Source of the DNA: Clostridiales bacterium
GTDB lineage: Bacteria > Bacillota > Clostridia > Christensenellales > Borkfalkiaceae
DNA length: 64,000 bases
Assembly: GCA_015055805.1 (NCBI GenBank)
Contig: SVHN01000001.1
Coordinates: 241,982-305,981 of the forward strand
Direction of reading: 5' to 3'
Both the position numbers and the translations under genes were made by a program. Below are positions 59,017 through 59,885 of the stretch, piece after piece. The notes beneath the pieces were generated by a model. The model worked only from the letters and a program-made list of their open reading frames with translations, did no database searches and was not told where the DNA came from. Position 1 is the stretch's first letter. Each line of letters opens with the position of its first letter.

Positions 59017-59850
59017 TTAAATGTTTTGTTTTCTGTATTGAGAGGGGGTAACCCTTTCAATTTTTTTAAATACGTGATTGAAGTGAGAAAGTGAATCGTA
59101 ACCGATTATGCTTGAAATGTGTAAAGTTGTATAGTTGGTATGCTTTAGTAGGTTGCAAGCATAGTTGATTTTAAGGTTTGTTAAGTATTCAACAGGTGTT
59201 TTGCCTACGTACTTTTTAAAGGATTTTATTACCGCTGGCACAGACATAGGAAATAGTGAATATATGTCTTCTGGTGACTTGTCTATAAAGTCTTGTGAGT
59301 TAATTGTGTTAATTATACTTGCGAACCAATCGGGAAATGAATTTTGGTTGGTTTTTATATAGTTATATATAATAGACGTGCAAGATAAAAATAAGGAAAC
59401 AACGTTTGGTGATGATTGCTGCTCTTTTTCTATAAAGTCTAAATTGATTTTATTAACCCAGTAATTTATTTGAGCTGTTTCGGCTTTGGATAATTGAAAA
59501 TAAATTTCAGATTCAGTTTTATTAATATTTTGAAATAGTGAGCCATAGAAGTTATTGCAAGTATTTTCAAAATAACTAGGTGTTACCGCAAGATTAACGT
59601 GTTGGGCAGGACTAGTTTTATCAAATAAAAAGCTATGCTTATCACTTGGCTTTATTAAAGCCAAACAGCCAGGTTGCAATATGATGCTTTTATCATTTAT
59701 CAAATGATTAACAGGGGCTTTTTGGAAGAATAAAAATTCATAGTATTCGTGTTTGTGCATTGCAACGGGATTGTTTTTCCAAATATGAAAATCCAATGGC
59801 GAATTGGGGTTTGAAAATGAAGTTTTAGGTGTGAAAACTATATTACTCAT
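59017..59850 (-). CDS. AraC family transcriptional regulator (cupin-type N-terminus)
   Basis: 'MHKHEYYEFLFFQ' cupin; C-terminal HTH 'HISSIIGYDSLSHFNHVFKKIERVTPSQYRK'. Confidence 0.9.
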   Translation of the reverse strand: MSNIVFTPKTSFSNPNSPLDFHIWKNNPVAMHKHEYYEFLFFQKAPVNHLINDKSIILQPGCLALIKPSDKHSFLFDKTSPAQHVNLAVTPSYFENTCNNFYGSLFQNINKTESEIYFQLSKAETAQINYWVNKINLDFIEKEQQSSPNVVSLFLSCTSIIYNYIKTNQNSFPDWFASIINTINSQDFIDKSPEDIYSLFPMSVPAVIKSFKKYVGKTPVEYLTNLKINYACNLLKHTNYTTLHISSIIGYDSLSHFNHVFKKIERVTPSQYRKQNI

Positions 59851-59856
59851 GCCTTA

Positions 59857-59885
59857 ATTATAGCGACTTAACAGTATTATGTCAA
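59857..59885 (-). promoter_or_regulatory. Perfect consensus promoter TTGACA-N17-TATAAT, -10 box 6 nt from the ATG
   Basis: Minus-strand ...TATAATTAAGGCATGAGTAAT. Confidence 0.85.

Follow-up and report, generated by a model that had tools for sequence, protein, structure and literature searches.

Two AraC-family regulator genes in the window (the whole 64,000-nt stretch of DNA analysed here) are each preceded by a perfect TTGACA-N17-TATAAT promoter that stops six nucleotides short of the ATG. It is likely, in our estimate, that in both cases this sigma-A-type consensus promoter sets the transcription start (+1) on the A of the AUG, that the mRNA is leaderless and free of a Shine–Dalgarno (SD) sequence, and that the arrangement is a recurrent, selectively kept architecture of AraC genes in this genus. 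We infer the 5′ end and leaderless translation from four features read directly in the sequence: the promoter–ATG geometry, its concentration at a 6-nt gap, the bias towards AraC genes and conservation between orthologues.

Promoter geometry in the window and the divergent transporter

The first gene (59017–59850, minus strand) encodes a 277-residue AraC-family regulator, whose C-terminal domain scores above the curated cut-offs for HTH_18 (62.4 bits, cut-off 33.6) and HTH_AraC (38.8 bits, cut-off 26.6), with an N-terminal ligand-binding cupin matching AraC_binding (25.1 bits, cut-off 21.1). On the same strand, a −35 hexamer TTGACA (59880–59885) is followed by a 17-nt spacer, a −10 hexamer TATAAT (59857–59862), the 6-nt discriminator TAAGGC (59851–59856) and the ATG itself (59850–59848). 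A discriminator of this length is expected to bring the start point onto the A of the ATG. The start codon is ATG, as befits a leaderless gene, with an in-frame TAA two codons 5′ of it, and on this geometry the mRNA is predicted to be leaderless.

The preliminary description had drawn attention to the same layout in a PocR-AraC gene, and both instances are confirmed in the sequence. The second gene, which lies about 28 kb away (30480–31361, minus strand; 293 residues, predicted leaderless), reads TTGACA-N17-TATAAT-CCAAAT-ATG, with its promoter at 31368–31396, the gap at 31362–31367 and the ATG at 31361; its spacer and gap letters are unrelated to those of the first gene. It is divergent to a GH20 gene at 31539, and the interval between its promoter and GH20 holds an ORF of about 32 codons (MSYLIKIYKSAVFCFDLIYKWKK..., approximately 31413–31510, plus strand) after a strong SD (GAGGAG); this ORF may encode a leader peptide or may have arisen by chance.

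The window holds three perfect TTGACA-N16–18-TATAAT promoters against 0.07 expected from shuffles. The third (7767–7795, plus strand) lies 44 nt 5′ of an ATG at 7840, and its gene is therefore leadered. A third AraC gene (10041–10886, plus strand) has an SD (AGGGGAAAAACAG-ATG) rather than the leaderless layout, and serves as an internal control. The hipB promoter and gene (52675–53003, plus strand) are near-leaderless: the 9 nt described between the −10 and the ATG at 52713 hold, though the promoter is TTGACA-N17-TAAAAT and its −10 is not TATAAT. Two similar palindromes, TGCTATTATATTAGCA (52654–52669) and TGCTAAAATATTAGCA (52695–52710), lie at this promoter; the second overlies the −10 and would probably serve as a HipB autorepression site.

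Divergent to the AraC gene at 59850 is a membrane-transport gene (60034–61491, plus strand; SD AAGGAG at 60021–60026), the probable target of the AraC protein. Its putative extended −10 (TGATAAACT, 59985–59990, plus strand) has no −35; the orthologous locus has TGATAAAAT. Between the two promoters lies a candidate AraC operator (59904–59967), composed of 22-nt direct repeats (59904–59925 and 59926–59947) and an imperfect third copy (59948–59967). The closest named matches are two MAGs listed as 'Clostridiales bacterium', SIG379 with an identical protein and SIG412 with one at 80% identity, and the repeats and the extended −10 are conserved at one orthologue locus, that of SIG412. The first part of the 486-residue transporter matches Mem_trans (PF03547), and its C-terminal part resembles EamA at a score below the cut-off; the protein is possibly an unusual two-part transporter.

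We think it doubtful that the leaderless layout serves autoregulation, with the regulator binding its own promoter and a compact promoter–gene junction favoured for that purpose. The hipB palindromes, one of them on the −10, fit such a role, as does the divergent arrangement of most AraC genes, including both window genes, with 110–220 bp as the typical intergenic distance. The candidate operator nevertheless keeps its place beside the divergent promoter in SIG412 while about 16 extra bases separate it from the AraC −35, which is mildly against autoregulation, and a divergent neighbour is found for most AraC genes of the leadered, SD-led class as well as of the leaderless one.

Enrichment among AraC genes and its breadth

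The assembly (1.73 Mb, 38% GC) was scanned by pattern and family searches for whole-genome counts, and background statistics were taken from 447 kb of sampled stretches. It contains 77 perfect TTGACA-N16–18-TATAAT promoters and none of the reversed control pattern. Reading the ORFs of at least 60 residues behind them (76 promoters in detail plus the third one of the window) gave six at a gap of 6 nt, two at gap 9 (a TetR gene and a GTG ORF) and one ATG at gap 0, all others lying at least 16 nt away. Every gap-6 ORF begins with ATG, and five of the six encode AraC proteins, the sixth being an LPG_synthase_TM protein. An HTH_18 search places 29 AraC genes in the genome; seven have a perfect promoter, five of these being leaderless-type.

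Relaxing the hexamers (−35 at least 4/6, −10 at least 5/6) across the 447-kb sample and the full AraC set, with some false positives among such matches at 38% GC, leaves the profile sharp: AraC genes occur at gap 6 (n = 10), gap 7 (n = 2) and gap 9 (n = 2), with none at any other gap from 0 to 17. At gaps 5–7, 12/29 AraC genes qualify versus 3/357 other sampled ORFs (Fisher p ~10⁻¹²), a truncated AraC copy (L145) that sat among the other ORFs having been excluded before testing; the three are MiaB-like, XerC/D-like and LexA-like, judged by reading their N termini. Widening to gaps 5–9 with a −10 of at least 4/6 brings the leaderless-type AraC genes to 15/29, of which those at gaps 7–9 may carry leaders of 1–3 nt. 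Roughly half of the AraC genes thus fall outside the leaderless type, most of them being SD-led, and AraC function therefore does not require leaderlessness.

Among XRE genes, a −10-only criterion (at least 5/6, gap 6 or 7, no SD) returns 5/19 versus 10/357 other ORFs (p = 4 × 10⁻⁴). HipB and one TetR gene lie at gap 9 and a GntR-type gene at gap 8; GntR and TetR (two genes each in the genome) are too few for a test, and the genome has no LacI genes. The regulator bias is accordingly mainly one of AraC, weaker for XRE and less firm for other families. The genome-wide scan for the promoter–ATG pattern proposed in the preliminary description thus does return an enrichment of regulators. Its broader suggestion, that regulators are preferentially leaderless, stands strongly for AraC and more weakly for XRE, but has to accommodate the half of the AraC family that is not leaderless-type.

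Other genomes of the genus show the same tendency. Of 19 perfect gap-6 sites read, 14 open an ORF of at least 50 residues, and 13 of the 14 are regulators or regulator-looking (seven AraC, three TetR, one XRE, one of MazE/AbrB type and one, L148, IclR-like by eye with no Pfam match at 1e-4); two of the seven AraC ORFs come from a near-identical genome and correspond to genes of the window itself. Across these genomes, 21/68 AraC genes fit the leaderless geometry, with a peak at gaps 6–7 and none at gaps 0–4 or 8. The rest of the order has 42 perfect gap-6 ORFs of mixed function, about eight of them regulators (some by eye), with RarA-, MnmA- and uracil-DNA-glycosylase-like genes (by reading) among the non-regulators. 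With relaxed hexamers, no leaderless-type case emerged among the order's 29 top-scoring AraC genes, a set biased to long two-domain proteins, and the AraC rule therefore does not reach far. In a phylum sample of 98 other genomes, one of 21 gap-6 sites opens an ORF of at least 50 residues (MarR-like by eye). The regulator bias is strong in the genus, weak in the order and essentially absent from the phylum sample.

For a sister genus in the same family (genome G073, loci L198 and L222–L229), nine perfect gap-6 sites were counted across 1.8 Mb, most of them ahead of non-regulator-looking genes; that lineage may use leaderless genes more generally.

These counts bear on a second alternative, that leaderless genes are a general trait of the order and that AraC stands out because its genes are monocistronic with promoters of their own. 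The mixed order-wide ORFs (about 8/42 regulator-looking) speak for it, as do the leaderless-type non-regulators of the genome itself (the MiaB-like, XerC/D-like and LPG_synthase_TM genes). Since AraC genes commonly own their promoters, we also limited the comparison to genes whose promoter lies no more than 30 nt away, where AraC remains enriched (14/18 versus 3/36, p = 5 × 10⁻⁷); among perfect promoters the figures are 5/7 for AraC versus 2/50 (the 50 being approximate). We consider the general-trait explanation unlikely. The order-wide mixture taken with the regulator excess in the genus indicates that the concentration on regulators belongs to the genus; the lineage-level claim of the preliminary description holds strongly at that rank but not for the functionally mixed order.

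Orthologue conservation and the position of the start

The layout outlasts the sequence around it. The window AraC protein and its SIG412 orthologue align from residue 1, and their promoters share both hexamers and both spacings exactly, with only 4/17 spacer and 2/6 discriminator positions identical. An AraC gene on contig 12 behaves likewise with two orthologues, keeping the geometry while spacer and discriminator have diverged. Between orthologues, then, the spacers have drifted to chance level as far as these alignments indicate, and the geometry has been kept. Reverse-best orthologues agree in state in 12/12 cases (eight leaderless/leaderless, four leadered/leadered, none discordant). A homologous pair at 51% identity (L129 and L171) is discordant, one leadered at gap 18 and the other at gap 6. 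A rapidly built tree of 97 AraC proteins requires 22 state changes against a shuffled mean of 29.6, and although many of its branches are weak, the well-supported ones force at least 11. Orthologue agreement together with these repeated changes implies that the state is stable in the short term and has undergone repeated gain or loss on longer time scales. Recent gene duplication as the source of the repeated geometry is ruled out, the 15 leaderless-type AraC proteins sharing at most 37% identity with one another.

Immediately 5′ of the start, two orthologous PocR-like AraC genes (L130 and L285, 72% identical) have in common an inverted repeat, conserved between them, around TATGGTAA...TTACC; it may be an operator or a hairpin.

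The promoter could be real and the main start elsewhere, on an SD-led transcript from an upstream promoter or at an internal start codon, as has been reported in C. phytofermentans for the majority of genes that seem leaderless. For the window AraC gene this is improbable: no SD was found before its ATG, nor an SD-led alternative among the ATG, GTG and TTG codons of the first 110, the orthologue alignment begins at residue 1, and the perfect promoter is the sole consensus promoter close to the gene. A coincidence of base composition, by which AT-rich upstream DNA supplies TATAAT-like hexamers near an ATG and two cases are picked from many, is less credible still; 20 of the 21 phylum matches are chance ATGs with ORFs of at most 18 residues, so that a lone match says little, but for the class such chance is ruled out by a gap profile confined to 6 (with 7 and 9) over a flat background and by the reversed-pattern control (0 versus 77), and it sits badly with the AraC contrast (12/29 versus 3/357) and with orthologues that keep the geometry despite diverged spacers.

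Relation to known leaderless genes and possible function

Classical leaderless regulators include lambda cI and the tetR of Tn1721. One known class of leaderless genes carries a −10 ('TA-like') signal immediately ahead of the start codon; COG category K is over-represented in it across genomes, and its Firmicutes members were found chiefly among Lactobacillales and Mycoplasma (Zheng et al. 2011, PMC3160421). In the transcription start site (TSS) map of S. agalactiae, every leaderless start codon is AUG, and in 90% of cases the transcript begins on the A (PMC4448216). The genes described here resemble both sets in having a −10 at a fixed distance before the AUG and no SD, and differ from those of Zheng et al. 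in belonging to a genus of Clostridia and in a bias on one regulator family. TSS maps of Clostridia give small leaderless fractions: 15 genes in C. difficile (PMC7438776), 4% in C. phytofermentans (PMC5171806), 2–3% in solventogenic clostridia (PMC9045289) and about 2% in C. autoethanogenum (PMC6873888), and the accessible portions of these four reports draw no link to AraC or to regulators. A study of C. acetobutylicum lists more leaderless genes and calls their role unexplored (PMC4533764).

A further parallel is VirF21 of Shigella, translated from a leaderless mRNA (PMC5101355); VirF is likewise of AraC type, but VirF21 is a short product made from within a single gene, whereas the genus studied here shows the architecture in full-length regulators across a family. 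In Deinococcus-Thermus, a −10 adjoining the ORF drives leaderless expression, and one placed too close to the start codon disturbs it (PMC12340547); there the mode is common genome-wide, in contrast to the present genome, where it is rare outside regulators and accompanied by a full −35. While leaderless genes are already known, their concentration in the AraC family in Clostridia was not found in the literature searched, which fell short of most subscription papers.

Under the reading we prefer, the consensus sigma-A-type promoter would start the AraC and PocR-AraC transcripts at the A of the AUG, and these mRNAs would be translated without an SD sequence. The layout would be selectively kept for AraC regulators of the genus (roughly one in two in this genome), more weakly for XRE-type genes and for a few others. 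It might keep a local regulator supplied at a steady, low level without reliance on an SD, the weakest step and one we hold at low confidence; the AraC protein would then activate the divergent operon, whose promoter lacks a −35 of its own. A strong promoter paired with weak translation lowers expression noise but spends more mRNA (PMC6325141). One tentative possibility, which we would not favour on present evidence, is that the AraC family has moved repeatedly (at least 11 changes on the tree) to leaderless translation, uncoupling regulator supply from SD initiation to give low-burst, steady levels or synthesis under stress, when 70S or modified ribosomes dominate. Leaderless translation need not be weak in this organism, given that adding a ribosome-binding site to a leaderless gene of S. 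pneumoniae made no difference (PMC6212727), and confidence in any functional reason, including the low ribosome demand suggested in the preliminary description, is accordingly kept low.

For annotation, start callers based on SD sequences are likely to misplace the starts of leaderless AraC genes. Few leaderless genes appear in the TSS maps of Clostridia, and they are commonly regarded as scattered cases; if half or so of a regulator family in one genus is leaderless, and stays so in orthologues while the intervening sequence drifts, the reason why leaderless initiation persists could be tested directly there.
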